From Gordius sp. MW1 (taxonomy: Eukaryota > Nematomorpha > Gordioida > Gordea > Gordiidae): a stretch of 64,000 bases of DNA. The DNA lies in contig OZ038530.1 of the NCBI GenBank assembly GCA_964036665.1, forward strand, positions 1,054,001 to 1,118,000, written 5' to 3'. The position numbers were made by a program, and so were the translations under genes. Under the pieces are notes generated by a model. The model did not search any database, was not told where the DNA came from, and saw only the letters and a program-made list of their open reading frames with translations. This document shows positions 1 through 17,740 of this stretch, piece by piece (position 1 is the stretch's first letter; each line of letters starts with the position of its first letter).

Positions 1-160
1 TATTTTCAACTTCCGGGGGGGTAAAAATTTTTTTAATTGCTAAACCATTTTGTATAATATTTACTAATTTTTATTGGTGATATAAGTGATATATAAATTG
101 ATACATACACGCATAATCATTAAATAAATACATGTAATATTTTAACGGGCAAGTGTTCTT

Positions 161-367
161 TTAAGAAAGTAACCGAATACTTCTTTGTTTTTTAAAGGCG
201 TACTCCTTCATCGCCATATCTAGATATTCTTCAGTAGGAAGGTCAGCCCCTTCTATAGATATTCTCATACAGTGGTCTAAAGATATCTCCCCTAGCCTGT
301 TTCTTAATGCAACCATAATTCGGTTCATTGCACTAAAGTAAGGGATAAAACAAGAGTTTTTCTTAAT
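161..367 (-). pseudogene. hAT transposase C-terminal (dimerisation) remnant, copy A
   Basis: Minus-strand frame ending in TAA at 163-161, identical to that in copy B (see 11618-11824). It encodes the YFSAMNRI and LRNRLGE motifs and is intact over its short length. There is no upstream catalytic region in the same element, so it is a fragment rather than a functional transposase gene. Confidence 0.65.
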
Positions 368-719
368 TCAGTCCCATCTTTACCTATTACAAACAAACAT
401 ATTCATGCCTTATTTATTATTTTATATAAACACAAATACCCATAGTATTCCCCAAACATATCTTCTCGCCTATTTCTAATTCAAAATCAAATAGATAAAA
501 AAGATATTTTATCTATATCAGAATTTAAATGCATGACAGATAATTATCATTAGTTATAAACATTATTTTGTGTGTATAAATGTAAATACCATCTTTTTTA
601 TTTTGACAATCTATGGAATAAACCAGTTTCTCCACAGAATTATCCTCACCTTTTCATAATACATAATTGATTAGACAAAAAAGATCTTTTTTATATGCTT
701 GCAAGCAAATTATAATTAG

Positions 720-956
720 TTAATATACATTTAAAATGACCAATATTTTGTTAGTAATATAAATATAAATACCATCCTTTTCATTATAACATTGAATGGA
801 ACAAACCAGAGTTTTTTCTACAGAACAATTATTCATATCTTCACCTGTTGCATAATTAAAATTATTCCAAATTAAATCATATTTACCATCCTTTTTATTA
901 GACTTTTCCTTTTTACTAAAGTAGTGTAAAAGAGTACTTTTATATTTACCAGACAT
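720..956 (-). pseudogene. hAT N-terminal remnant ORF (78 codons), copy A
   Basis: Minus-strand frame from ATG at 956 to TAA at 720, the same 78-residue product as in copies B and C, starting MSGKYKSTLLHYFSKKEK. It lies about 350 bp upstream of the C-terminal remnant in the element's own orientation. Whether it is translated is unknown. Confidence 0.5.
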
Positions 957-1392
957 CTATCTGCAATTCAAAAAAAACATAGAATGTATTATTTATAATA
1001 ATTCTTTTTAAGTTTATAAGTAAGATAGTGATTTAATAATTCTAAAAGCATTTATTTATGTTTAGTTACCTATTGATATATTAAAGATAATTTGTAACTT
1101 TCAAGATTGTAAATTTACGGTTCACAGATGTTAAAAAATGATGTCTATGAATGATTTCCACCTGATCTGTAAAAAAATTTAATTTCGCCAATTTTATATT
1201 TTTTATTGACAAATTAAAATAATTTATTGAATTTCAATTTTAGCCTAAGCCTATTATTAATATAATTTATGACTTCATGGTGGAACCTCAGTTAATGTTC
1301 ATGCTTCCTTCAATCAAAACTCTCCGGGGGGGTATTTGAAACTCCCCGGGGGGGGTATTACCCCCCCGGGCTCCCCTCTGAAAGAAACCCTG

Positions 1393-3188
1393 CAACGGGC
1401 GGACAACGGACGGACAACGGACGGACAACGGACATACAACGGGCGGACAACGTGCGGACAACGGAAGGACAACGGGCGGACAACGGACGGACAACGGAAG
1501 GACATCAGACGGACAACGGACGGACAACGGAAGGACAACAAAAGGACATCAGACGGACAACGAACGGACAACGAACGGAAAACGAACGGACAACGAACGG
1601 ACAACGAACGGACAACGGACAGACAACAAAAGGACATCAGACGGACAACGGACGTACAACGAACGGACAACGGCCGGACAACGGACGGACAACGAACGGA
1701 CAACGAACGGACAACGGAAGGACAACGGAAGGACAACGGACGGACAACGGGCGGACTACGGAAGGACAACGGGCGGACAACAAAAGGACATCAGACGGAC
1801 AACGGATGGACAACGAACGGACAACGGACGGACAACGGACGGACAACGGGCGGACAACAAAAGGACATCAGACGGACAACGGACGGACAACGGGCGGACA
1901 AAGGACGGACAACGGACGGACAACGGACATAGGGCGGACAACGTGCGGACAACGGAAGGACAACGGGCGGACAACGGACGGACAACGGAAGGACATCAGA
2001 CGGACAACGGACGGACAACGGAAGGACAACAAAAGGACATCAGACGGACAACGAACGGACAACGAAAGGACAACGAACGGACAACGAACGGACAACGAAC
2101 GGACAACGAACGGACAACGGACGGACAACAAAAGGACATCAGACGGACAAGGGACGGACAACAACGGACAACGGACGGACAACGGACGGATAACGGGCGG
2201 ACAACGAACGGACAACGAACGGACAACGGACGGACAACGGACGGACAACGGAAGGACAACGGACGGACAACGGAAGGACAACGGGCGGACAACGGGCGGA
2301 CAACGGACGGACAACGAACGAACAACGAACGGACAACGAACGGACAACGGACAGACAACAAAAGGACATCTGACGGACAACGGAAGGACAACGGACGGAC
2401 AACGGACGGACAACGGACGGACAACGGACGGACAACGGAAGGACAACGGGCGGACAACGGACGGACAACGGACGGACAACGGAAGGACATCAGACGGACA
2501 ACGGACGGACAACGGAAGGACAACGGGCGGACAACGGGCGCACAACGGACGGACAACGGAAGGACATCAGACGGACAAGGGACGGACAACGGATGGACAA
2601 CGGAAGGACATCAGACGGACAACGGACGGACAACGGAAGGACAACAAAAGGACATCAGACGGACAACGGACGGACAACAAAAGGACATCAGACGGACAAC
2701 GGACGGACAACGGAAGGACAACGGACGGACAACGGAAGGACAACGGAAGGACAACGGAAGGACAACGGGCGGACAACGAACGGACAACGAACGGACAACG
2801 GACGGACAACGGACGGACAACGGAAGGACAACGGACGGACAACGGAAGGACAACGGGCGGACAACGGGCGGACAACGGACGGACAACGAACGGACAACGA
2901 ACGGACAACGGACAGACAACAAAAGGACATCTGACGGACAACGGAAGGACAACGGACGGACAACGGACGGACAACGGACGGACAACGGACGGACAACGGA
3001 AGGACAACGGGCGGACAACGGACGGACAACGGACGGACAACGGAAGGACATCAGACGGACAACGGACGGACAACGGAAGGACAACGGAAGGACAACGGAA
3101 GGACAACGAACGGACAACGAACGGACAACGGACGGACAACGGACGGACAACAGACGGACAACGGGCGGACAACGGACGGACAACGGAC
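1393..3188 (-). repeat. 11-bp satellite array, S1 (minus orientation)
   Basis: Tandem 11-mers read GGACAACGGAC and variants on the + strand. The array starts directly at the target-site end of hAT copy A and ends at J module M1. It corresponds to 8235-10592 in the right arm but lacks the 561-bp duplication. A 10-bp unit near 2155-2165 (GGACAACAAC context) breaks the 11-bp phase and is the only single-base length difference found between the arms. No gene is present; the open frames are produced by the repeat. Confidence 0.97.
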
Positions 3189-3657
3189 GTAGCCAGCGGA
3201 CGGCCAAAAAGTCATATTATCAACAGAATACTCTCACGGATTCAAACTTGTTGCCTCCTGACGGACAACGGACGGTCCGTCGTCCCTCCGTTGTCCGTCC
3301 GTCCTCCGTCCGTCCTCCCTCCGTCGTCTCTCCGTCGTCCGTCCGTCGTCCCTCTGTCGTCCCTCCGTCGTCCCTCCGTGCTATGCAATTTATTAAATTT
3401 TTTTATCAAAAAATATTTTTTTCGACCTCAAAATTTTTTCAATTTTTTTGTAACACCATATAGGCCTCATGAAAATTTTCGATATCAGAGGTGAATTCCG
3501 ACAAAAAAAATTTTTTCGACTTGAAAATTTTTTAAATTTTTTTGTTCAACCATATAGGCTTCGTGAAAATTTCAGCGGACGGCTAAAAAGTCATATTATC
3601 AATGTTATTAACAAGAACAGAATACTCTCCGGGATTCAAACTTGTAGCCTCCTGATG
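3189..3657 (-). repeat. J module M1 (two AT subrepeats)
   Basis: Reverse complement of M3 at exactly mirrored coordinates, 469 bp long. Reading the + strand, it starts with GTAGCCAGCGG (end of tag 2), passes an orientation-switch hairpin and a GTCGTCCCTCC-type 11-mer stretch, then two AT-rich subrepeats, and ends with CTTGTAGCCTCCTGATG (tag 1). The tags contain GGATTCAAACT, the reverse complement of a B-box-like motif. Confidence 0.9.
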
Positions 3658-5181
3658 GACAACGGACGGACAACGGAAGGACATCAGACGGACAAGGGAC
3701 GGACAACGGACGGACAACGGAAGGACATCAGACGGACAACGGACGGACAACGGAAGGACATCAGATGGACAAGGGACGGACAACGGATGGACAACGGAAG
3801 GACATCAGACGGACAACGGACGGACAACGGAAGGACAACAAAAGGACATCAGACGGACAACGGACGGACAACAAAAGGACATCAGACGGACAACGGACGG
3901 ACAACGGAAGGACAACGGACGGACAACGGACATAGGGCGGACAACGTGCGGACAACGGAAGGACAACGGGCGGACAACGGACGGACAACGGAAGGACATC
4001 AGACGGACAACGGACGGACAACGGAAGGACAACAAAAGGACATCAGACGGACAACGAACGGACAACGAAAGGACAACGAACGGACAACGAACGGACAACG
4101 AACGGACAACGAACGGACAACGGACGGACAACAAAAGGACATCAGACGGACAAGGGACGGACAACGAACGGACAACGGACGGACAACGGACGGACAACGG
4201 GCGGACAACGAACGGACAACGAACGGACAACGGACGGACAACGGACGGACAACGGAAGGACAACGGACGGACAACGGAAGGACAACGGGCGGACAACGGG
4301 CGGACAACGGACGGACAACGAACGAACAACGAACGGACAACGAACGGACAACGGACAGACAACAAAAGGACATCTGACGGACAACGGAAGGACAACGGAC
4401 GGACAACGGACGGACAACGGACGGACAACGGACGGACAACGGAAGGACAACGGGCGGACAACGGACGGACAACGGACGGACAACGGAAGGACATCAGACG
4501 GACAACGGACGGACAACGGAAGGACAACGGGCGGACAACGGGCGCACAACGGACGGACAACGGAAGGACATCAGACGGACAAGGGACGGACAACGGATGG
4601 ACAACGGAAGGACATCAGACGGACAACGGACGGACAACGGAAGGACAACAAAAGGACATCAGACGGACAACGGACGGACAACAAAAGGACATCAGACGGA
4701 CAACGGACGGACAACGGAAGGACAACGGACGGACAACGGAAGGACAACGGAAGGACAACGGGCGGACAACGAACGGACAACGAACGGACAACGGACGGAC
4801 AACGGACGGACAACGGAAGGACAACGGACGGACAACGGAAGGACAACGGGCGGACAACGGGCGGACAACGGACGGACAACGAACGGACAACGAACGGACA
4901 ACGAACGGACAACGGACAGACAACAAAAGGACATCTGACGGACAACGGAAGGACAACGGACGGACAACGGACGGACAACGGACGGACAACGGAAGGACAA
5001 CGGGCGGACAACGGACGGACAACGGACGGACAACGGAAGGACATCAGACGGACAACGGACGGACAACGGAAGGACAACGGAAGGACAACGGAAGGACAAC
5101 GAACGGACAACGAACGGACAACGGACGGACAACGGACGGACAACAGACGGACAACGGGCGGACAACGGACGGACAACGGAC
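3658..5181 (-). repeat. 11-bp satellite array, S2
   Basis: Satellite of 1524 bp in GGACAACGGAC orientation between M1 and M2. It mirrors 6242-7765 base for base in length and unit order at the landmarks I compared, and that segment repeats directly as 12526-14049. No gene is seen. Confidence 0.97.
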
Positions 5182-5650
5182 GTAGCCAGCGGACGGCCAA
5201 AAAGTCATATTATCAACAGAATACTCTCACGGATTCAAACTTGTTGCCTCCTGACGGACAACGGACGGTCCGTCGTCCCTCCGTTGTCCGTCCGTCCTCC
5301 GTCCGTCCTCCCTCCGTCGTCTCTCCGTCGTCCGTCCGTCGTCCCTCTGTCGTCCCTCCGTCGTCCCTCCGTGCTATGCAATTTATTAAATTTTTTTATC
5401 AAAAAATATTTTTTTCGACCTCAAAATTTTTTCAATTTTTTTGTAACACCATATAGGCCTCATGAAAATTTTCGATATCAGAGGTGAATTCCGACAAAAA
5501 AAATTTTTTCGACTTGAAAATTTTTTAAATTTTTTTGTTCAACCATATAGGCTTCGTGAAAATTTCAGCGGACGGCTAAAAAGTCATATTATCAATGTTA
5601 TTAACAAGAACAGAATACTCTCCGGGATTCAAACTTGTAGCCTCCTGATG
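5182..5650 (-). repeat. J module M2 (spans the left palindrome break)
   Basis: Complete 469-bp module in minus orientation. Its first 114 bp (tag 2, hairpin and the beginning of the inverted 11-mer stretch) belong to the palindrome's left arm. From 5296 onward the module has no mirror on the right and forms part of the palindrome loop. Its AT-rich core has two subrepeats, as in M1. Confidence 0.9.
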
Positions 5651-6140
5651 GACAACGGACGGACAACGGAAGGACATCAGACGGACAAGGGACGGACAAC
5701 GGACGGACAACGGAAGGACATCAGACGGACAACGGACGGACAACGGAAGGACATCAGATGGACAAGGGACGGACAACGGATGGACAACGGAAGGACATCA
5801 GACGGACAACCGACGGACAACGGAAGGACAACAAAAGGACATCAGACGGACAACGGACGGACAACAAAAGGACATCAGACGGACAACGGACGGACAACGG
5901 ACGGACAACGGAAGGACAACGGACGGACAACGGAAGGACAACGGGCGGACAACGGGCGGACAACGGACGGACAACAAACGGACAACGAACGGACAACGAA
6001 CGGACAACGGACAGACAACAAAAGGACATCTGACGGACAACGGAAGGACAACGGACGGACAACGGACGGACAACGGACGGACAACGGACGGACAACGGAA
6101 GGACAACGGGCGGACAACGGACGGACAACGGACGGACAAC
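5651..6140 (-). repeat. 11-bp satellite array, S3 (palindrome loop)
   Basis: About 490 bp of minus-orientation satellite. Its right end merges without a seam into the inverted 11-mer stretch of partial module H1 (GGACGGACAACGGAGGGAC), because both have the same local orientation. This is where the array changes direction for the rest of the window. No gene is seen. Confidence 0.95.
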
Positions 6141-6241
6141 GGAGGGACGACGGACCGTCCGTTGTCCGTCAGGAGGCAACAAGTTTGAATCCGTGAGAGT
6201 ATTCTGTTGATAATATGACTTTTTGGCCGTCCGCTGGCTAC
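6141..6241 (+). repeat. Partial J module H1 at the right palindrome break
   Basis: Contains only the hairpin segment and tag 2 (TCAGGAGGCAACAAG through the T5 run to GCTGGCTAC); tag 1 and the AT-rich core are absent. A 13-bp stem (6131-6143 with 6158-6170) and 14-nt loop sit within 30 bp of the symmetry break at 6128. It mirrors 5182-5282 of M2. Confidence 0.9.
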
Positions 6242-7765
6242 GTCCGTTGTCCGTCCGTTGTCCGCCCGTTGTCCGTCTGTTGTCCGTCCGTTGTCCGTCC
6301 GTTGTCCGTTCGTTGTCCGTTCGTTGTCCTTCCGTTGTCCTTCCGTTGTCCTTCCGTTGTCCGTCCGTTGTCCGTCTGATGTCCTTCCGTTGTCCGTCCG
6401 TTGTCCGTCCGTTGTCCGCCCGTTGTCCTTCCGTTGTCCGTCCGTTGTCCGTCCGTTGTCCGTCCGTTGTCCTTCCGTTGTCCGTCAGATGTCCTTTTGT
6501 TGTCTGTCCGTTGTCCGTTCGTTGTCCGTTCGTTGTCCGTTCGTTGTCCGTCCGTTGTCCGCCCGTTGTCCGCCCGTTGTCCTTCCGTTGTCCGTCCGTT
6601 GTCCTTCCGTTGTCCGTCCGTTGTCCGTCCGTTGTCCGTTCGTTGTCCGTTCGTTGTCCGCCCGTTGTCCTTCCGTTGTCCTTCCGTTGTCCGTCCGTTG
6701 TCCTTCCGTTGTCCGTCCGTTGTCCGTCTGATGTCCTTTTGTTGTCCGTCCGTTGTCCGTCTGATGTCCTTTTGTTGTCCTTCCGTTGTCCGTCCGTTGT
6801 CCGTCTGATGTCCTTCCGTTGTCCATCCGTTGTCCGTCCCTTGTCCGTCTGATGTCCTTCCGTTGTCCGTCCGTTGTGCGCCCGTTGTCCGCCCGTTGTC
6901 CTTCCGTTGTCCGTCCGTTGTCCGTCTGATGTCCTTCCGTTGTCCGTCCGTTGTCCGTCCGTTGTCCGCCCGTTGTCCTTCCGTTGTCCGTCCGTTGTCC
7001 GTCCGTTGTCCGTCCGTTGTCCGTCCGTTGTCCTTCCGTTGTCCGTCAGATGTCCTTTTGTTGTCTGTCCGTTGTCCGTTCGTTGTCCGTTCGTTGTTCG
7101 TTCGTTGTCCGTCCGTTGTCCGCCCGTTGTCCGCCCGTTGTCCTTCCGTTGTCCGTCCGTTGTCCTTCCGTTGTCCGTCCGTTGTCCGTCCGTTGTCCGT
7201 TCGTTGTCCGTTCGTTGTCCGCCCGTTGTCCGTCCGTTGTCCGTCAGTTGTCCGTTCGTTGTCCGTCCCTTGTCCGTCTGATGTCCTTTTGTTGTCCGTC
7301 CGTTGTCCGTTCGTTGTCCGTTCGTTGTCCGTTCGTTGTCCGTTCGTTGTCCTTTCGTTGTCCGTTCGTTGTCCGTCTGATGTCCTTTTGTTGTCCTTCC
7401 GTTGTCCGTCCGTTGTCCGTCTGATGTCCTTCCGTTGTCCGTCCGTTGTCCGCCCGTTGTCCTTCCGTTGTCCGCACGTTGTCCGCCCTATGTCCGTTGT
7501 CCGTCCGTTGTCCTTCCGTTGTCCGTCCGTTGTCCGTCTGATGTCCTTTTGTTGTCCGTCCGTTGTCCGTCTGATGTCCTTTTGTTGTCCTTCCGTTGTC
7601 CGTCCGTTGTCCGTCTGATGTCCTTCCGTTGTCCATCCGTTGTCCGTCCCTTGTCCATCTGATGTCCTTCCGTTGTCCGTCCGTTGTCCGTCTGATGTCC
7701 TTCCGTTGTCCGTCCGTTGTCCGTCCCTTGTCCGTCTGATGTCCTTCCGTTGTCCGTCCGTTGTC
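6242..7765 (+). repeat. 11-bp satellite array, S4
   Basis: First array in GTCCGTCCGTT orientation. It is the mirror of 3658-5181 and the direct-repeat partner of 12526-14049 (offset 6284). Unit order is structured: GTCCGTCAGAT is followed by GTCCTTTTGTT, GTCTGTCCGTT and then GTCCGTTCGTT units. No gene is seen. Confidence 0.97.
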
Positions 7766-8234
7766 CATCAGGAGGCTACAAGTTTGAATCCCGGAGAGTA
7801 TTCTGTTCTTGTTAATAACATTGATAATATGACTTTTTAGCCGTCCGCTGAAATTTTCACGAAGCCTATATGGTTGAACAAAAAAATTTAAAAAATTTTC
7901 AAGTCGAAAAAATTTTTTTTGTCGGAATTCACCTCTGATATCGAAAATTTTCATGAGGCCTATATGGTGTTACAAAAAAATTGAAAAAATTTTGAGGTCG
8001 AAAAAAATATTTTTTGATAAAAAAATTTAATAAATTGCATAGCACGGAGGGACGACGGAGGGACGACAGAGGGACGACGGACGGACGACGGAGAGACGAC
8101 GGAGGGAGGACGGACGGAGGACGGACGGACAACGGAGGGACGACGGACCGTCCGTTGTCCGTCAGGAGGCAACAAGTTTGAATCCGTGAGAGTATTCTGT
8201 TGATAATATGACTTTTTGGCCGTCCGCTGGCTAC
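7766..8234 (+). repeat. J module M3 (reference copy, two AT subrepeats)
   Basis: Order on the + strand: tag 1 from CATCAGGAGGCTACAAG (7766) with B-box-like AGTTTGAATCC at 7781-7791 and TTTTT at 7834-7838. Next come two AT-rich subrepeats (GAAGCCTATATGG at 7861, GAGGCCTATATGG at 7955, period 94) with A- and T-tracts and a GAATTC site. Then an inverted short array of GGAGGGACGAC units (about 8045-8123) and a hairpin (8124-8136 pairing with 8151-8163). It ends with tag 2 (AGTTTGAATCC at 8175-8185, TTTTT at 8213-8217). The tags are in direct orientation. No coding potential is recognised. Confidence 0.92.
8124..8163 (+). other. Orientation-switch hairpin in M3
   Basis: GACGGACAACGGA at 8124-8136 pairs perfectly with TCCGTTGTCCGTC at 8151-8163 around a 14-nt loop. 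Left of the loop the 11-mers run in minus orientation, right of it in plus orientation. Every complete J module contains the same structure, and it lies next to the palindrome break at H1. Confidence 0.8.
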
Positions 8235-10592
8235 GTCCGTTGTCCGTCCGTTGTCCGCCCGTTGTCCGTCTGTTGTCCGTCCGTTGTCCGTCCGTTGTCC
8301 GTTCGTTGTCCGTTCGTTGTCCTTCCGTTGTCCTTCCGTTGTCCTTCCGTTGTCCGTCCGTTGTCCGTCTGATGTCCTTCCGTTGTCCGTCCGTTGTCCG
8401 TCCGTTGTCCGCCCGTTGTCCTTCCGTTGTCCGTCCGTTGTCCGTCCGTTGTCCGTCCGTTGTCCGTCCGTTGTCCTTCCGTTGTCCGTCAGATGTCCTT
8501 TTGTTGTCTGTCCGTTGTCCGTTCGTTGTCCGTTCGTTGTCCGTTCGTTGTCCGTCCGTTGTCCGCCCGTTGTCCGCCCGTTGTCCTTCCGTTGTCCGTC
8601 CGTTGTCCTTCCGTTGTCCGTCCGTTGTCCGTCCGTTGTCCGTTCGTTGTCCGTTCGTTGTCCGCCCGTTGTCCTTCCGTTGTCCTTCCGTTGTCCTTCC
8701 GTTGTCCGTCCGTTGTCCTTCCGTTGTCCGTCCGTTGTCCGTCTGATGTCCTTTTGTTGTCCGTCCGTTGTCCGTCTGATGTCCTTTTGTTGTCCTTCCG
8801 TTGTCCGTCCGTTGTCCGTCTGATGTCCTTCCGTTGTCCATCCGTTGTCCGTCCCTTGTCCGTCTGATGTCCTTCCGTTGTCCGTCCGTTGTGCGCCCGT
8901 TGTCCGCCCGTTGTCCTTCCGTTGTCCGTCCGTTGTCCGTCTGATGTCCTTCCGTTGTCCGTCCGTTGTCCGTCCGTTGTCCGCCCGTTGTCCTTCCGTT
9001 GTCCGTCCGTTGTCCGTCCGTTGTCCGTCCGTTGTCCGTCCGTTGTCCTTCCGTTGTCCGTCAGATGTCCTTTTGTTGTCTGTCCGTTGTCCGTTCGTTG
9101 TCCGTTCGTTGTCCGTCCGTTGTCCGCCCGTTGTCCGCCCGTTGTCCTTCCGTTGTCCGTCCGTTGTCCTTCCGTTGTCCGTCCGTTGTCCGTCCGTTGT
9201 CCGTTCGTTGTCCGTTCGTTGTCCGCCCGTTGTCCTTCCGTTGTCCTTCCGTTGTCCTTCCGTTGTCCGTCCGTTGTCCTTCCGTTGTCCGTCCGTTGTC
9301 CGTCTGATGTCCTTTTGTTGTCCGTCCGTTGTCCGTCTGATGTCCTTTTGTTGTCCTTCCGTTGTCCGTCCGTTGTCCGTCTGATGTCCTTCCGTTGTCC
9401 ATCCGTTGTCCGTCCCTTGTCCGTCTGATGTCCTTCCGTTGTCCGTCCGTTGTGCGCCCGTTGTCCGCCCGTTGTCCTTCCGTTGTCCGTCCGTTGTCCG
9501 TCTGATGTCCTTCCGTTGTCCGTCCGTTGTCCGTCCGTTGTCCGCCCGTTGTCCTTCCGTTGTCCGTCCGTTGTCCGTCCGTTGTCCGTCCGTTGTCCGT
9601 CCGTTGTCCTTCCGTTGTCCGTCAGATGTCCTTTTGTTGTCTGTCCGTTGTCCGTTCGTTGTCCGTTCGTTGTTCGTTCGTTGTCCGTCCGTTGTCCGCC
9701 CGTTGTCCGCCCGTTGTCCTTCCGTTGTCCGTCCGTTGTCCTTCCGTTGTCCGTCCGTTGTCCGTCCGTTGTCCGTTCGTTGTCCGTTCGTTGTCCGCCC
9801 GTTATCCGTCCGTTGTCCGTCCGTTGTCCGTTCGTTGTCCGTCCCTTGTCCGTCTGATGTCCTTTTGTTGTCCGTCCGTTGTCCGTTCGTTGTCCGTTCG
9901 TTGTCCGTTCGTTGTCCTTTCGTTGTCCGTTCGTTGTCCGTCTGATGTCCTTTTGTTGTCCTTCCGTTGTCCGTCCGTTGTCCGTCTGATGTCCTTCCGT
10001 TGTCCGTCCGTTGTCCGCCCGTTGTCCTTCCGTTGTCCGCACGTTGTCCGCCCTATGTCCGTTGTCCGTCCGTTGTCCGTCCTTTGTCCGCCCGTTGTCC
10101 GTCCGTTGTCCGTCTGATGTCCTTTTGTTGTCCGCCCGTTGTCCGTCCGTTGTCCGTCCGTTGTCCGTTCGTTGTCCATCCGTTGTCCGTCTGATGTCCT
10201 TTTGTTGTCCGCCCGTTGTCCTTCCGTAGTCCGCCCGTTGTCCGTCCGTTGTCCTTCCGTTGTCCTTCCGTTGTCCGTTCGTTGTCCGTTCGTTGTCCGT
10301 CCGTTGTCCGGCCGTTGTCCGTTCGTTGTACGTCCGTTGTCCGTCTGATGTCCTTTTGTTGTCTGTCCGTTGTCCGTTCGTTGTCCGTTCGTTGTCCGTT
10401 CGTTTTCCGTTCGTTGTCCGTTCGTTGTCCGTCTGATGTCCTTTTGTTGTCCTTCCGTTGTCCGTCCGTTGTCCGTCTGATGTCCTTCCGTTGTCCGTCC
10501 GTTGTCCGCCCGTTGTCCTTCCGTTGTCCGCACGTTGTCCGCCCGTTGTATGTCCGTTGTCCGTCCGTTGTCCGTCCGTTGTCCGCCCGTTG
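8235..10592 (+). repeat. 11-bp satellite array, S5, with 561-bp tandem duplication
   Basis: Array between M3 and hAT copy B. Blocks starting near 8845 and 9406 are tandem copies offset by 561 bp, which is 51 units of 11 bp, so repeat phase is kept. The left palindrome arm and the 14519-16315 segment each have only one copy of this block. The array ends GCCCGTTG, the transposon target site. No gene is seen. Confidence 0.95.
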
Positions 10593-10614
10593 CAGGGTTT
10601 CTTTCAGAGGGGAG

Positions 10615-10640
10615 CCCGGGGGGGTAATACCCCCCCCGGG
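10615..10640 (+). other. G/C-tract hairpin beside the left terminal repeat
   Basis: Seven G (10618-10624), loop TAATA, then eight C (10630-10637) and GGG. This makes a G7/C7 stem that can extend through CCC/GGG with one bulged C. Copies A and C share it; copy D has a one-base variant, and in E and F the C side is broken to CCTCCCC. Confidence 0.7.
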
Positions 10641-10915
10641 GAGTTTCAAATACCCCCCCGGAGAGTTTTGATTGAAGGAAGCATGAACATTAACTGAGGT
10701 TCCACCATGAAGTCATAAATTATATTAATAATAGGCTTAGGCTAAAATTGAAATTCAATAAATTATTTTAATTTGTCAATAAAAAATATAAAATTGGCGA
10801 AATTAAATTTTTTTACAGATCAGGTGGAAATCATTCATAGACATCATTTTTTAACATCTGTGAACCGTAAATTTACAATCTTGAAAGTTACAAATTATCT
10901 TTAATATATCAATAG

Positions 10916-11024
10916 GTAACTAAACATAAATAAATGCTTTTAGAATTATTAAATCACTATCTTACTTATAAACTTAAAAAGAATTATTATAAATAATACA
11001 TTCTATGTTTTTTTTGAATTGCAG
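10916..11024 (+). other. Possible 5' UTR intron of hAT remnant gene
   Basis: AATAG/GTAACT at 10916 looks like a splice donor, and a T-rich tract ending GAATTGCAG at 11024 looks like an acceptor, four bases before the ATG at 11029. The predicted intron is 109 bp. This is inferred from splice-site consensus only; no transcript evidence is available. Confidence 0.35.
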
Positions 11025-11028
11025 ATAG

Positions 11029-11265
11029 ATGTCTGGTAAATATAAAAGTACTCTTTTACACTACTTTAGTAAAAAGGAAAAGTCTAATAAAAAGGATGGT
11101 AAATATGATTTAATTTGGAATAATTTTAATTATGCAACAGGTGAAGATATGAATAATTGTTCTGTAGAAAAAACTCTGGTTTGTTCCATTCAATGTTATA
11201 ATGAAAAGGATGGTATTTATATTTATATTACTAACAAAATATTGGTCATTTTAAATGTATATTAA
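11029..11265 (+). pseudogene. hAT N-terminal remnant ORF (78 codons), copy B
   Basis: Starts at ATG 11029 just after a likely splice acceptor. The beginning, MSGKYKSTLLHYFSKKEK, is short, basic and aromatic, like the first residues of many animal hAT transposases. After about residue 40 I recognise no domain; there is no BED-type zinc finger and no catalytic motif. The frame is kept in copies A, B, C and D and broken by a stop at codon 5 in E. In an intact parent the exon may have ended at a donor-like site within the frame (ACAG/GTGAAG at 11141), in which case the last part of the frame is intronic. The hAT assignment of this piece is an inference from position. Confidence 0.5.
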
Positions 11266-11660
11266 CTAATTATAATTTGCTTGCAAGCATATAAAAAAGA
11301 TCTTTTTTGTCTAATCAATTATGTATTATGAAAAGGTGAGGATAATTCTGTGGAGAAACTGGTTTATTCCATAGATTGTCAAAATAAAAAAGATGGTATT
11401 TACATTTATACACACAAAATAATGTTTATAACTAATGATAATTATCTGTCATGCATTTAAATTCTGATATAGATAAAATATCTTTTTTATCTATTTGATT
11501 TTGAATTAGAAATAGGCGAGAAGATATGTTTGGGGAATACTATGGGTATTTGTGTTTATATAAAATAATAAATAAGGCATGAATATGTTTGTTTGTAATA
11601 GGTAAAGATGGGACTGAATTAAGAAAAACTCTTGTTTTATCCCTTACTTTAGTGCAATGA
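11141..11660 (+). repeat. Degenerate internal repeats with donor-like starts in copy B
   Basis: Four related blocks begin at 11141 (GTGAAGATATG), 11336 (GTGAGGATAATTC), 11516 (GCGAGAAGATATG) and 11602 (GTAAAGATGGG), each preceded by AG or AAG. Blocks 1, 2 and 4 continue with similar text such as GAAAAAACTCTGGTTTG, GAGAAACTGGTTTATTCC and GAAAAACTCTTGTTTTATCC. Spacing is 195, 180 and 86 bp. They look like old tandem duplications of a short coding or splice-junction segment. Confidence 0.6.
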
Positions 11661-11824
11661 ACCGAATTATGGTTGCATTAAGAAACAGGCTAGGGGAGAT
11701 ATCTTTAGACCACTGTATGAGAATATCTATAGAAGGGGCTGACCTTCCTACTGAAGAATATCTAGATATGGCGATGAAGGAGTACGCCTTTAAAAAACAA
11801 AGAAGTATTCGGTTACTTTCTTAA
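11618..11824 (+). pseudogene. hAT transposase C-terminal dimerisation-domain remnant, copy B
   Basis: Open from the codon after TGA (11615-11617) to TAA at 11822-11824; an internal ATG lies at 11657, giving 55 codons from that Met. It reads ...PYFSAMNRI, then LRNRLGEISLDHCMRISIEG, and ends KKQRSIRLLS. The FSxMNRIK...LRNRLG...ISIEG pattern is characteristic of the C-terminal dimerisation region of hAT transposases, including ZNF862-like proteins; I recognise it from knowledge of the family, not from a search. Homology appears to start at YFSAMNRI, so the internal deletion junction lies just upstream. The frame is intact in A, B, D and E and frameshifted in C. Confidence 0.75.
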
Positions 11825-11909
11825 AAGAACACTTGCCCGTTAAAATATTACATGTATTTATTTAATGATTATGCGTGTATGTATCAATTTATATATCACT
11901 TATATCACC

Positions 11910-11915
11910 AATAAA
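11910..11915 (+). terminator. AATAAA polyadenylation signal of hAT remnant
   Basis: AATAAA lies 86 bp after the stop codon of the C-terminal remnant and before the right terminal repeat. It is positioned as the 3' end signal of the ancestral transposase transcript. The same motif is at the equivalent place in the other full copies. Confidence 0.5.
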
Positions 11916-12018
11916 AATTAGTAAATATTATACAAAATGGTTTAGCAATTAAAAAAATTTTTACCCCCCCGGAAGTTGAAAATACCCCCCCGGAGCATTT
12001 TTTCTGAAAGAAACCCTG

Positions 12019-12452
12019 GTCTGATGTCCTTTTGTTGTCCGTCCGTTCGTTGTCCGTTCGTTGTCCGTTCGTTGTCCGTCTGATGTCCTTTTGTTGTCCT
12101 TCCGTTGTCCGTTCGTTGTCCGTCTGATGTCCTTCCGTTGTCCGTCCGTTGTCCGCCCGTTGTCCTTCCGTTGTCCTTCCGTTGTCCGTCCGTTGTCCTT
12201 CCGTTGTCCGTCAGATGTCCTTTTGTTGTCTGTCCGTTGTCCGTTCGTTGTCCGTTCGTTGTCCTTCCGTTGTCCTTCCGTTGTCCGTCCGTTGTCCGTC
12301 CGTTGTCCTTCCGTTGTCCGTCTGATGTCCGTCCGTTGTCCTTCCGTTGTCCGTCCGTTGTCCGTCCGTTGTCCTTCCGTTGTCCGTCTGATGTCCGTCC
12401 GTTGTCCTTCCGTTGTCCGTCCGTTGTCCGTCCGTTGTCCTTCCGTTGTCCG
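12019..12452 (+). repeat. 11-bp satellite array, S6
   Basis: Short array between hAT B and partial module H2. It carries the out-of-phase 15-bp stretch GTCCGTCCGTTCGTT just after the element; the same irregularity follows copies C, D and E, marking shared ancestry of the flanks. No gene is seen. Confidence 0.95.
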
Positions 12453-12525
12453 TCAGGAGGCAACAAGTTTGAATCCGTGAGAGTATTCTGTTGATAATAT
12501 GACTTTTTGGCCGTCCGCTGGCTAC
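12453..12525 (+). repeat. Partial J module H2 (tag 2 only)
   Basis: Tag 2 (TCAGGAGGCAACAAG to GCTGGCTAC) is embedded directly in plus-orientation satellite. There is no tag 1, AT-rich core, inverted 11-mers or hairpin. It is 6284 bp downstream of H1. The likely origin is loss of the left part of a module by unequal exchange within the GTTGTCCGTC sequence that precedes each tag. Confidence 0.9.
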
Positions 12526-14049
12526 GTCCGTTGTCCGTCCGTTGTCCGCCCGTTGTCCGTCTGTTGTCCGTCCGTTGTCCGTCCGTTGTCCGTTCGTTGT
12601 CCGTTCGTTGTCCTTCCGTTGTCCTTCCGTTGTCCTTCCGTTGTCCGTCCGTTGTCCGTCTGATGTCCTTCCGTTGTCCGTCCGTTGTCCGTCCGTTGTC
12701 CGCCCGTTGTCCTTCCGTTGTCCGTCCGTTGTCCGTCCGTTGTCCGTCCGTTGTCCTTCCGTTGTCCGTCAGATGTCCTTTTGTTGTCAGTCCGTTGTCC
12801 GTTCGTTGTCCGTTCGTTGTCCGTTCGTTGTCCGTCCGTTGTCCGCCCGTTGTCCGCCCGTTGTCCTTCCGTTGTCCGTCCGTTGTCCTTCCGTTGTCCG
12901 TCCGTTGTCCGTCCGTTGTCCGTTCGTTGTCCGTTCGTTGTCCGCCCGTTGTCCTTCCGTTGTCCTTCCGTTGTCCGTCCGTTGTCCTTCCGTTGTCCGT
13001 CCGTTGTCCGTCTGATGTCCTTTTGTTGTCCGTCCGTTGTCCGTCTGATGTCCTTTTGTTGTCCTTCCGTTGTCCGTCCGTTGTCCGTCTGATGTCCTTC
13101 CGTTGTCCATCCGTTGTCCGTCCCTTGTCCGTCTGATGTCCTTCCGTTGTCCGTCCGTTGTGCGCCCGTTGTCCGCCCGTTGTCCTTCCGTTGTCCGTCC
13201 GTTGTCCGTCTGATGTCCTTCCGTTGTCCGTCCGTTGTCCGTCCGTTGTCCGCCCGTTGTCCTTCCGTTGTCCGTCCGTTGTCCGTCCGTTGTCCGTCCG
13301 TTGTCCGTCCGTTGTCCTTCCGTTGTCCGTCAGATGTCCTTTTGTTGTCTGTCCGTTGTCCGTTCGTTGTCCGTTCGTTGTTCGTTCGTTGTCCGTCCGT
13401 TGTCCGCCCGTTGTCCGCCCGTTGTCCTTCCGTTGTCCGTCCGTTGTCCTTCCGTTGTCCGTCCGTTGTCCGTCCGTTGTCCGTTCGTTGTCCGTTCGTT
13501 GTCCGCCCGTTGTCCGTCCGTTGTCCGTCCGTTGTCCGTTCGTTGTCCGTCCCTTGTCCGTCTGATGTCCTTTTGTTGTCCGTCCGTTGTCCGTTCGTTG
13601 TCCGTTCGTTGTCCGTTCGTTGTCCGTTCGTTGTCCTTTCGTTGTCCGTTCGTTGTCCGTCTGATGTCCTTTTGTTGTCCTTCCGTTGTCCGTCCGTTGT
13701 CCGTCTGATGTCCTTCCGTTGTCCGTCCGTTGTCCGCCCGTTGTCCTTCCGTTGTCCGCACGTTGTCCGCCCTATGTCCGTTGTCCGTCCGTTGTCCTTC
13801 CGTTGTCCGTCCGTTGTCCGTCTGATGTCCTTTTGTTGTCCGTCCGTTGTCCGTCTGATGTCCTTTTGTTGTCCTTCCGTTGTCCGTCCGTTGTCCGTCT
13901 GATGTCCTTCCGTTGTCCATCCGTTGTCCGTCCCTTGTCCATCTGATGTCCTTCCGTTGTCCGTCCGTTGTCCGTCTGATGTCCTTCCGTTGTCCGTCCG
14001 TTGTCCGTCCCTTGTCCGTCTGATGTCCTTCCGTTGTCCGTCCGTTGTC
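12526..14049 (+). repeat. 11-bp satellite array, S7
   Basis: Direct repeat of 6242-7765 with offset 6284 and equal length (1524 bp). Few base differences are visible, for example GTCAGTCCGTT near 12787 where the partner has GTCTGTCCGTT. No gene is seen. Confidence 0.97.
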
Positions 14050-14518
14050 CATCAGGAGGCTACAAGTTTGAATCCCGGAGAGTATTCTGTTCTTGTTAAT
14101 AACATTGATAATATGACTTTTTAGCCGTCCGCTGAAATTTTCACGAAGCCTATATGGTTGAACAAAAAAATTTAAAAAATTTTCAAGTCGAAAAAATTTT
14201 TTTTGTCGGAATTCACCTCTGATATCGAAAATTTTCATGAGGCCTATATGGTGTTACAAAAAAATTGAAAAAATTTTGAGGTCGAAAAAAATATTTTTTG
14301 ATAAAAAAATTTAATAAATTGCATAGCACGGAGGGACGACGGAGGGACGACAGAGGGACGACGGACGGACGACGGAGAGACGACGGAGGGAGGACGGACG
14401 GAGGACGGACGGACAACGGAGGGACGACGGACCGTCCGTTGTCCGTCAGGAGGCAACAAGTTTGAATCCGTGAGAGTATTCTGTTGATAATATGACTTTT
14501 TGGCCGTCCGCTGGCTAC
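14050..14518 (+). repeat. J module M4 (two AT subrepeats)
   Basis: Copy of M3 at offset 6284 with identical length (469 bp) and the same two-subrepeat core. It is part of the 6.2-12.0 / 12.4-17.7 kb direct duplication. Confidence 0.92.
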
Positions 14519-16315
14519 GTCCGTTGTCCGTCCGTTGTCCGCCCGTTGTCCGTCTGTTGTCCGTCCGTTGTCCGTCCGTTGTCCGTTCGTTGTCCGTTCG
14601 TTGTCCTTCCGTTGTCCTTCCGTTGTCCTTCCGTTGTCCGTCCGTTGTCCGTCTGATGTCCTTCCGTTGTCCGTCCGTTGTCCGTCCGTTGTCCGCCCGT
14701 TGTCCTTCCGTTGTCCGTCCGTTGTCCGTCCGTTGTCCGTCCGTTGTCCGTCCGTTGTCCTTCCGTTGTCCGTCAGATGTCCTTTTGTTGTCTGTCCGTT
14801 GTCCGTTCGTTGTCCGTTCGTTGTCCGTTCGTTGTCCGTCCGTTGTCCGCCCGTTGTCCGCCCGTTGTCCTTCCGTTGTCCGTCCGTTGTCCTTCCGTTG
14901 TCCGTCCGTTGTCCGTCCGTTGTCCGTTCGTTGTCCGTTCGTTGTCCGCCCGTTGTCCTTCCGTTGTCCTTCCGTTGTCCTTCCGTTGTCCGTCCGTTGT
15001 CCTTCCGTTGTCCGTCCGTTGTCCGTCTGATGTCCTTTTGTTGTCCGTCCGTTGTCCGTCTGATGTCCTTTTGTTGTCCTTCCGTTGTCCGTCCGTTGTC
15101 CGTCTGATGTCCTTCCGTTGTCCATCCGTTGTCCGTCCCTTGTCCGTCTGATGTCCTTCCGTTGTCCGTCCGTTGTGCGCCCGTTGTCCGCCCGTTGTCC
15201 TTCCGTTGTCCGTCCGTTGTCCGTCTGATGTCCTTCCGTTGTCCGTCCGTTGTCCGTCCGTTGTCCGCCCGTTGTCCTTCCGTTGTCCGTCCGTTGTCCG
15301 TCCGTTGTCCGTCCGTTGTCCGTCCGTTGTCCTTCCGTTGTCCGTCAGATGTCCTTTTGTTGTCTGTCCGTTGTCCGTTCGTTGTCCGTTCGTTGTTCGT
15401 TCGTTGTCCGTCCGTTGTCCGCCCGTTGTCCGCCCGTTGTCCTTCCGTTGTCCGTCCGTTGTCCTTCCGTTGTCCGTCCGTTGTCCGTCCGTTGTCCGTT
15501 CGTTGTCCGTTCGTTGTCCGCCCGTTATCCGTCCGTTGTCCGTCCGTTGTCCGTTCGTTGTCCGTCCCTTGTCCGTCTGATGTCCTTTTGTTGTCCGTCC
15601 GTTGTCCGTTCGTTGTCCGTTCGTTGTCCGTTCGTTGTCCGTTCGTTGTCCTTTCGTTGTCCGTTCGTTGTCCGTCTGATGTCCTTTTGTTGTCCTTCCG
15701 TTGTCCGTCCGTTGTCCGTCTGATGTCCTTCCGTTGTCCGTCCGTTGTCCGCCCGTTGTCCTTCCGTTGTCCGCACGTTGTCCGCCCTATGTCCGTTGTC
15801 CGTCCGTTGTCCGTCCTTTGTCCGCCCGTTGTCCGTCCGTTGTCCGTCTGATGTCCTTTTGTTGTCCGCCCGTTGTCCGTCCGTTGTCCGTCCGTTGTCC
15901 GTTCGTTGTCCATCCGTTGTCCGTCTGATGTCCTTTTGTTGTCCGCCCGTTGTCCTTCCGTAGTCCGCCCGTTGTCCGTCCGTTGTCCTTCCGTTGTCCT
16001 TCCGTTGTCCGTTCGTTGTCCGTTCGTTGTCCGTCCGTTGTCCGGCCGTTGTCCGTTCGTTGTACGTCCGTTGTCCGTCTGATGTCCTTTTGTTGTCTGT
16101 CCGTTGTCCGTTCGTTGTCCGTTCGTTGTCCGTTCGTTTTCCGTTCGTTGTCCGTTCGTTGTCCGTCTGATGTCCTTTTGTTGTCCTTCCGTTGTCCGTC
16201 CGTTGTCCGTCTGATGTCCTTCCGTTGTCCGTCCGTTGTCCGCCCGTTGTCCTTCCGTTGTCCGCACGTTGTCCGCCCGTTGTATGTCCGTTGTCCGTCC
16301 GTTGTCCGCCCGTTG
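14519..16315 (+). repeat. 11-bp satellite array, S8
   Basis: Partner of 8235-10592 but with a single copy of the 561-bp block (offset changes from 6284 to 5723). Just before hAT C only one GTCCGTCCGTT unit lies between the TATGTCC landmark and the target-site unit, against two at A, B and D. No gene is seen. Confidence 0.96.
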
Positions 16316-16751
16316 CAGGGTTTCTTTCAGAGGGGAGCCCGGGGGGGTAATACCCCCCCCGGGGAGTTTCAAATACCCCCCCGGAGAGTTTTGATTGAAG
16401 GAAGCATGAACATTAACTGAGGTTCCACCATGAAGTCATAAATTATATTAATAATAGGCTTAGGCTAAAATTGAAATTCAATAAATTATTTTAATTTGTC
16501 AATAAAAAATATAAAATTGGCGAAATTAAATTTTTTTACAGATCAGGTGGAAATCATTCATAGACATCATTTTTTAACATCTGTGAACCGTAAATTTACA
16601 ATCTTGAAAGTTACAAATTATCTTTAATATATCAATAGGTAACTAAACATAAATAAATGCTTTTAGAATTATTAAATCACTATCTTACTTATAAACTTAA
16701 AAAGAATTATTATAAATAATACATTCTATGTTTTTTTTGAATTGCAGATAG

Positions 16752-16988
16752 ATGTCTGGTAAATATAAAAGTACTCTTTTACACTACTTTAGTAAAAAGG
16801 AAAAGTCTAATAAAAAGGATGGTAAATATGATTTAATTTGGAATAATTTTAATTATGCAACAGGTGAAGATATGAATAATTGTTCTGTAGAAAAAACTCT
16901 GGTTTGTTCCATTCAATGTTATAATGAAAAGGATGGTATTTATATTTATATTACTAACAAAATATTGGTCATTTTAAATGTATATTAA
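16752..16988 (+). pseudogene. hAT N-terminal remnant ORF (78 codons), copy C
   Basis: Same 78-codon frame and product as copies A and B, preceded by the same GAATTGCAG acceptor-like sequence. No lesion is seen. Confidence 0.5.
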
Positions 16989-17340
16989 CTAATTATAATT
17001 TGCTTGCAAGCATATAAAAAAGATCTTTTTTGTCTAATCAATTATGTATTATGAAAAGGTGAGGATAATTCTGTGGAGAAACTGGTTTATTCCATAGATT
17101 GTCAAAATAAAAAAGATGGTATTTACATTTATACACACAAAATAATGTTTATAACTAATGATAATTATCTGTCATGCATTTAAATTCTGATATAGATAAA
17201 ATATCTTTTTTATCTATTTGATTTTGAATTAGAAATAGGCGAGAAGATATGTTTGGGGAATACTATGGGTATTTGTGTTTATATAAAATAATAAATAAGG
17301 CATGAATATGTTTGTTTGTAATAGGTAAAGATGGGACTGA

Positions 17341-17546
17341 ATTAAGAAAAACTCTTGTTTTATCCCTTACTTTAGTGCAATGAACCGAATTATGGTTGCA
17401 TTAAGAAACAGGCTAGGGGAGATATCTTTAGACCACTGTATGAGAATATCTAAGAAGGGGCTGACCTTCCTACTGAAGAATATCTAGATATGGCGATGAA
17501 GGAGTACGCCTTTAAAAAACAAAGAAGTATTCGGTTACTTTCTTAA
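17341..17546 (+). pseudogene. hAT C-terminal remnant with frameshift, copy C
   Basis: Equivalent of 11618-11824. One base is lost near 17450 (TCTATAGAAG in B, TCTAAGAAG here). After MRIS the frame shifts and stops at TAG 17485-17487, so the ISIEG motif and tail are lost. The YFSAMNRI and LRNRLGE motifs before the lesion are intact. Confidence 0.75.
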
Positions 17547-17740
17547 AAGAACACTTGCCCGTTAAAATATTACATGTATTTATTTAATGATTATGCGTGT
17601 ATGTATCAATTTATATATCACTTATATCACCAATAAAAATTAGTAAATATTATACAAAATGGTTTAGCAATTAAAAAAATTTTTACCCCCCCGGAAGTTG
17701 AAAATACCCCCCCGGAGCATTTTTTCTGAAAGAAACCCTG

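Follow-up and report, generated by a model that had tools for sequence, protein, structure and literature searches.

The origin of satellite blocks that run in opposite orientations is, to our knowledge, poorly documented at the level of the breakpoint, and the question of how such a block begins is raised by a stretch of the genome of the nematomorph Gordius sp. MW1 (GenBank assembly GCA_964036665.1; 211.8 Mb in 12 contigs). The stretch, hereafter the window, comprises 64,000 nucleotides of contig OZ038530.1 (C4:1054001-1118000) and consists nearly throughout of an 11-bp satellite with the unit ~CGTCCGTTGTC; the 11-mers are grouped into units of several kb, each with an AT-rich spacer and short conserved blocks. 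At the start of the window lies a palindrome of about 12 kb, which is no isolated structure and is the meeting point of minus- and plus-oriented arrays of this satellite. With moderate confidence we favour the reading that a homogenised satellite array changes orientation here, and that the change was made at a small inverted patch of satellite (the inverted block) borne by the units themselves. All orientations and identities were read from the assembled sequence of one assembly and one haplotype.

Structure of the palindrome

In a 94-kb stretch the satellite is minus-oriented over the 26 kb left of position 6128 and plus-oriented over the 67.9 kb to the right of it, short inverted blocks excepted; within the window the plus array (unit CGTCCGTTGTC) occupies 6241-62660, with spacers, inverted blocks, and AT-rich elements set into it. 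The left arm (1-5295, minus strand) is a minus satellite unit, composed of an array with spacers at 1393-5182 and, up to 1392, most of a reversed AT-rich element of 1.43 kb, and the minus array continues leftward past the window start. The right arm (6128-11984, plus strand) is a plus unit cut off at its inverted block. Between the arms a single-copy loop of 832 bp (5296-6127, minus strand) remains unpaired and is asymmetric, comprising the remainder of an inverted block, an AT-rich spacer, a conserved GTTTGAATCC block, and ~470 bp of 11-mers.

The first-pass annotation, made from the letters of the window, had described 1-5295 and 6128-11984 as mirror images, and a global base-by-base alignment of the left arm with the reverse complement of the right arm bore this out, giving 5283 matches and 1 mismatch (4177 against 7246) over 5284 aligned bases, or 99.98% identity at aligned positions. 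Three gaps were found, of 11 bp (left-arm surplus at 2068), 1 bp, and 572 bp (right-arm surplus at ~8545-9116, equal to 52 x 11), and the mirror coordinate sums are, in order, 11985, 11996, 11995, and 11423. The annotation had allowed for length differences of 561 bp and 1 bp only: the 1-bp gap is indeed present, the 11-bp gap and the substitution had been missed, and 561 bp is the amount by which 6128-11984 differs from its sister unit at 12442-17706, whose counterpart for the left arm is 572 bp. The inner arm ends at 5295 and 6128 proved exact, as they are closed by a perfect 16-bp inverted repeat, TCCGTTGTCCGTCCGT at 5280-5295 (minus strand, in the inverted block that the last minus unit carries) and its exact reverse complement ACGGACGGACAACGGA at 6128-6143 (plus strand, containing the orientation switch), and the bases further inward differ. 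The outer ends at 1 and 11984 had been set too short, since the mirror runs on without a difference for 404 bp, reaching window positions -403 and 12388. Further outward it is near-perfect for ~7 kb and then becomes gapped, many of the gaps being multiples of 11 bp, and homogenisation confounds the use of this tract as a test of fold-back.

Recurrence of the junction at orientation switches

The inverted block consists of the 11-mer family of the main array in the opposite direction. The 94-kb stretch contains 14 complete inverted blocks of 94-138 bp each, which make up 1.6% of its length in total; among them are 105-bp blocks in minus units at 3275-3379 and 5268-5372 (both minus strand, the latter in the unit adjoining the switch) and in plus units at 8044-8148 and 14328-14432 (both plus strand). 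The switch itself is a 36-bp junction (6126-6161, plus strand), in which a canonical minus 11-mer runs directly into the right-hand end of an inverted block. Genome-wide the 36-mer occurs in three exact copies, all on C4 (589,890; 1,060,126; 1,271,064, the last in reverse), and these are the three minus-to-plus switches localised on that contig. At all three the minus array passes via ACGGACGGACAACGGA, as a 16-bp match, into the right end of the inverted block, and the minus partner at the window junction differs from that at 589,890 and 1,271,064. The plus-to-minus switch at C4:1,147,357, present in one copy in the genome, consists of the first 10 bp of the inverted block followed by the minus array.

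Orientation was mapped from markers and sparse probes, so that at least the following switches exist and small additional ones can be missed. On C4 the array runs minus at 387-589.9, 759.0-1060.1, and 1147.4-1271.1 kb and plus at 589.9-759.0, 1060.1-1147.4, and 1271.1 to ~1452 kb; one satellite forms long blocks on opposite strands, with lengths of ~87-301 kb between the switches. For C9, the places sampled up to 170.2 kb are minus; a plus block begins at ~170.3 kb and reaches at least 231 kb, and at 240 kb the orientation has returned to minus. Six direct orientation switches were localised (five on C4, within ~1.1 Mb of array, and one on C9), and two more orientation changes are split by other DNA, at C4 ~356.1-358.8 kb, in an outer, related repeat, and at C9 231-240 kb. 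Four of the six direct switches fall within an inverted block, against its 1.6% share of length.

Near-perfect inverted repeats are a classic artefact, and the array is hard to assemble (C4 starts without a telomere repeat, and on C8 satellite markers lie ~1.3 kb from the contig end), so that an origin of the switch in the assembly or the library, by chimeric fold-back reads or by a wrong join of collapsed repeats, has to be weighed. We consider it unlikely: the stretch contains no N, one junction stands at three places with two different minus-side flanks, blocks of ~87-301 kb separate the C4 switches, and a graph join at a 16-bp match would be unexpected. The simplest form of such an artefact, a read-through hairpin, fits poorly; the first-pass annotation had already argued against it from the 561-bp difference, and it is disfavoured here by the asymmetric 832-bp loop, the three arm gaps, the unlike outer flanks, and the recurrence of the junction at 589,890 and 1,271,064.

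Identity across the array

The near-identity of the arms is not private to the arm pair. The next plus unit (12442-17706, plus strand) aligns to the left arm with 5254 matches, 1 mismatch, and gaps of 1, 11, 1, and 11 bp plus an end offset. With 1 mismatch each, this unit and the facing arm are equally close to the left arm. Among 12 compared copies of the 1.43-kb element, those in the left arm, in the right arm, and in the left neighbour of the left arm (-6870) are identical; only copies with both exact terminal repeats and the marker were kept, and seven of the eight C9 loci (L002-L008) gave none. When 200-bp tiles from the 26-kb minus side were compared with the right side, 34 of 43 had a perfect mirror partner and 38 of 43 had one with at least 198 matches, the lowest value being 172, and a perfect direct partner on the left was likewise found for 34 of 43.

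In a second sampling the share of tiles matching the right side at 99% or more was 90% of 52 on the left side, 90% of 20 in a C8 stretch, and 85% and 95% of 20 in two C4 stretches at 990-1010 kb, and only 60% and 25% of 20 in the stretches around the other two minus-to-plus junctions. The corresponding share was 35% at the C9 start and 75% of 8 in one 3.9-kb C9 locus, 20% at C4 1450-1460 kb (mostly past the array), and 0% at the C4 start. A 900-bp piece was 100% identical at all 40 scored places on C4, C8, and C9 (query included, out of 558 candidates), with the full score at 36 of them. Over 4 kb, and with one method for the three minus-to-plus junctions, the reverse complement of the left side agreed with the right side at 95.2% and 95.4% of aligned positions at the other two minus-to-plus junctions (2506 and 3160 positions) and at 99.97% at the window switch (3112 positions).

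The likeness of the arms stems from homogenisation of the array, which in its ordinary form is enough to account for it. Upkeep of the palindrome by arm-to-arm gene conversion, as in Y-chromosome palindromes, could point to the single substitution per 5284 aligned arm bases, and it would have the arms closer to each other than to other copies of the repeat; the unit at 12442-17706 is as close and the element at -6870 is identical, same-strand sister units and distant copies match equally, and the arm pair is nothing special. Since sister units and tiles are equally alike, arm-to-arm conversion is not needed, and we rejected it as the cause of the identity and regard it as very improbable. The first-pass annotation had offered either a very recent inverted duplication or continuing conversion between the arms; of this the recent common origin stands, whereas the idea that the likeness is exclusive to the palindrome does not, and conversion is superfluous. 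Near-identical palindrome arms in satellite DNA are thus weak evidence of palindrome-specific gene conversion.

Proposed mechanism

The junctions with their recurrence, the orientation blocks, and the wide identity are observed directly, and we infer fold-back as the route, as well as its timing with respect to duplication of the right-hand unit. In the block at 8044-8148, which consists of diverged minus 11-mers followed by the GGACCGTCC hinge, a 16-bp stretch 77 bp in is identical to the canonical 11-mer array, and therefore an array end can pair with the block. Read in the plus direction, the left arm has a canonical 11-mer and this 16-bp part of the inverted block 832 bp apart and in opposed directions. 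A broken or stalled 3' end at the canonical 11-mer would pair with the 16-bp block part, either by fold-back or by inverted strand exchange, and copying would then proceed backwards along the unit, yielding in succession array, 16-bp match, and unit. Later duplication and exchange within the array would hold both orientations near-identical. The hinge adjoining the inverted block has 271 exact copies genome-wide, and as single-stranded DNA the stretch of block plus hinge is predicted to fold better than its shuffles (z -2.71), of which 2 in 200 did as well.

Several findings weigh against a switch made at the inverted block by such a route. The junctions at 589,890 and 1,271,064 agree over 667 bp on one side, save for 1 difference, and over 385 bp without any difference on the other; they look like copies of one event, so that the independent in-block cases number three of five. 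At a 1.6% share the chance of at least three of five is ~4e-5, but this test was framed after the first cases and assumes even exposure. At the plus-to-minus switch at C4:759,019 array meets array with a 2-bp gap, CCGTTGTCC-AC-GGACAACGG, a unique sequence, and on C9 the switch, near 170,325, falls within the AT-rich element, where homology is not evident. The proposition that every switch uses the inverted block accordingly failed on C9, the sole out-of-sample test, and was dropped. Strict fold-back expects a longer mirror, and near-perfect collinearity stops ~7 kb out, which would mean either a short copied tract or a mirror since broken by array turnover. Finally, the plus block 1,060,126-1,147,367 ends in the last 28 bp at one side and the first 10 bp at the other of a 105-bp inverted block, so that 67 bp are unaccounted for and the ends are not exact reciprocals; a strict reciprocal junction was not found by exact search, the other-end junction having come to light in the probes.

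The same plus block brings in the main rival, which is inversion by recombination between blocks and arrays of different units, or unequal exchange of pre-existing plus and minus arrays, and which predicts the same junction. On this view the plus block would be 87 kb of a minus array turned around, and the arms would be alike only since units in general are alike. Minus array does flank it on both sides, each of its ends falls in an inverted block, of which the right end is retained at one and the left end at the other, and no local duplication is needed for the tile identities. The missing 67 bp and the lack of exact reciprocity tell against inversion as well, and it leaves unexplained that, across the loop, the left arm faces one of its closest mirror partners. 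We therefore regard inversion as a possible origin of the switch, of clearly lower probability than a switch made by copying at the inverted block.

Other features of the window and its contigs

The AT-rich element is present in only some satellite units; the copy at 10593-12018 (plus strand) is 1426 bp long and has 15-bp terminal inverted repeats (CAGGGTTTCTTTCAG). It resembles a DNA transposon that became caught in the unit, decayed, and lost internal sequence. By general resemblance it may be hAT-like, with no convincing Pfam family. Relics of hAT elements are recognised by a transposase domain and an 8-bp target duplication; a Pfam search of two short frames of the element gave nothing for one and E values of 0.06 and 0.074, under the curated cut-offs, for the other, and the flanks of the 15-bp terminal repeats differ, so that no 8-bp duplication was seen there. 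Just beyond the hinge, at 12388-12442, a second plus unit begins without its inverted block, as if by direct unequal exchange via the other side of the hinge.

Within the window 315 open frames were counted mechanically. Rfam returned 0 matches at the gathering score and ARAGORN 0 genes, although two kinds of short block contain GTTTGAATCC. A 78-aa frame compared with viral contigs gave 48 pattern matches and no confirmed relative, and among the literature matches listed for the 11-mer none had a satellite topic by title.

The two orientation changes that are split by other DNA have different contents. At C4 ~356.1-358.8 kb mitochondrial gene fragments (nad1-, cox1-, and atp6-like frames, judged by eye) lie between plus and minus blocks of the outer repeat, and C4 354201-360000 has 51 25-mers in common with the first 4 kb of contig C12; on this sequence evidence the segment is interpreted as a nuclear mitochondrial insertion at an orientation change. 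C12 itself, 14.8 kb long, looks like a mitochondrial genome, with cytb- and nad1-like frames by eye in the order cytb(+)-nad1(-) and a short tandem repeat from ~3.7 kb. This gene order and the TTAGGG telomere repeat at contig ends are suggestive of an ecdysozoan. At the C9 plus-to-minus change (C9:227001-238700), non-satellite DNA was found in the probes at 233, 235, 237, and 238.5 kb.

At ~1452.2 kb on C4 the array gives way to a related repeat (GTCCGTGACC type) that contains AT-rich spacers, and this type was also seen in several C4 probes at 60-357 kb. The first 10 kb of C4 contain a related repeat, and the telomere repeat TTAGGG, which occurs at six contig starts and one contig end, was not found there. 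C9 starts in the satellite of the window and ends in the TTAGGG repeat (C9:1367001-1367660), and on C8 markers of the same satellite extend to within ~1.3 kb of the contig end; C9 may supply the end that C4 or C8 lacks.

Relation to known systems and significance

Inversions in satellite arrays are already known in human, in the cited passages of two sources (PMC9186530, PMC9549924). In T2T-CHM13 the beta-satellite and HSat arrays are described as mosaics of inverted blocks, with high similarity both within single chromosomes and from one to another (PMC9186530). The Gordius array shares with them the inverted-block mosaic in near-identical satellite, the 11-mer being set beside them by array layout, and differs in the unit-borne inverted patch and the recurrent base-exact junction, neither of which is named in the cited part of that account (PMC9186530). 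The inverted segment in the alpha-satellite of human chromosome 1, described as the only one of its kind in live human centromeres, is likewise an orientation flip in a homogenised array; on C4, in contrast, five direct switches lie in ~1.1 Mb (PMC9549924).

As regards the route, human fold-back inverted duplications in patients are reported in the cited passages with a single-copy spacer between the inverted copies and short inverted sequences at its edge (PMC3907307), and both characters are seen in the window, with its duplicated arms, its single-copy 832-bp loop, and its short inverted homology at the edges. The homology measures 16 bp here against 2-8 bp (or ~300 bp in repeats) in human, and the setting is satellite here against mostly unique DNA there (PMC3907307). 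Origin-dependent inverted-repeat amplification (ODIRA), as characterised in the part cited, uses inverted-repeat arms of 2-14 bp within ~100 bp of each other (PMC10766183). A switch at a pre-existing short interrupted inverted repeat is common to both; however, the arms in the window are 832 bp apart, well outside that spacing, and ODIRA fits the window layout less well than fold-back.

The small part of the literature that was covered yielded no case of an inverted block within the repeat unit whose base-exact junction recurs at several switches. The breakpoints described here can be read to the base, and the placement of four of the six direct ones in one short feature of the unit offers a concrete, testable cause for opposite-orientation blocks. 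More speculatively, and with considerable doubt on our part, the inverted block may be a standing switch, at which the array flips repeatedly at one base-exact site with homogenisation spanning both strands. If this is true, the orientation of the array would be a regularly changing property of it and not a rare accident.

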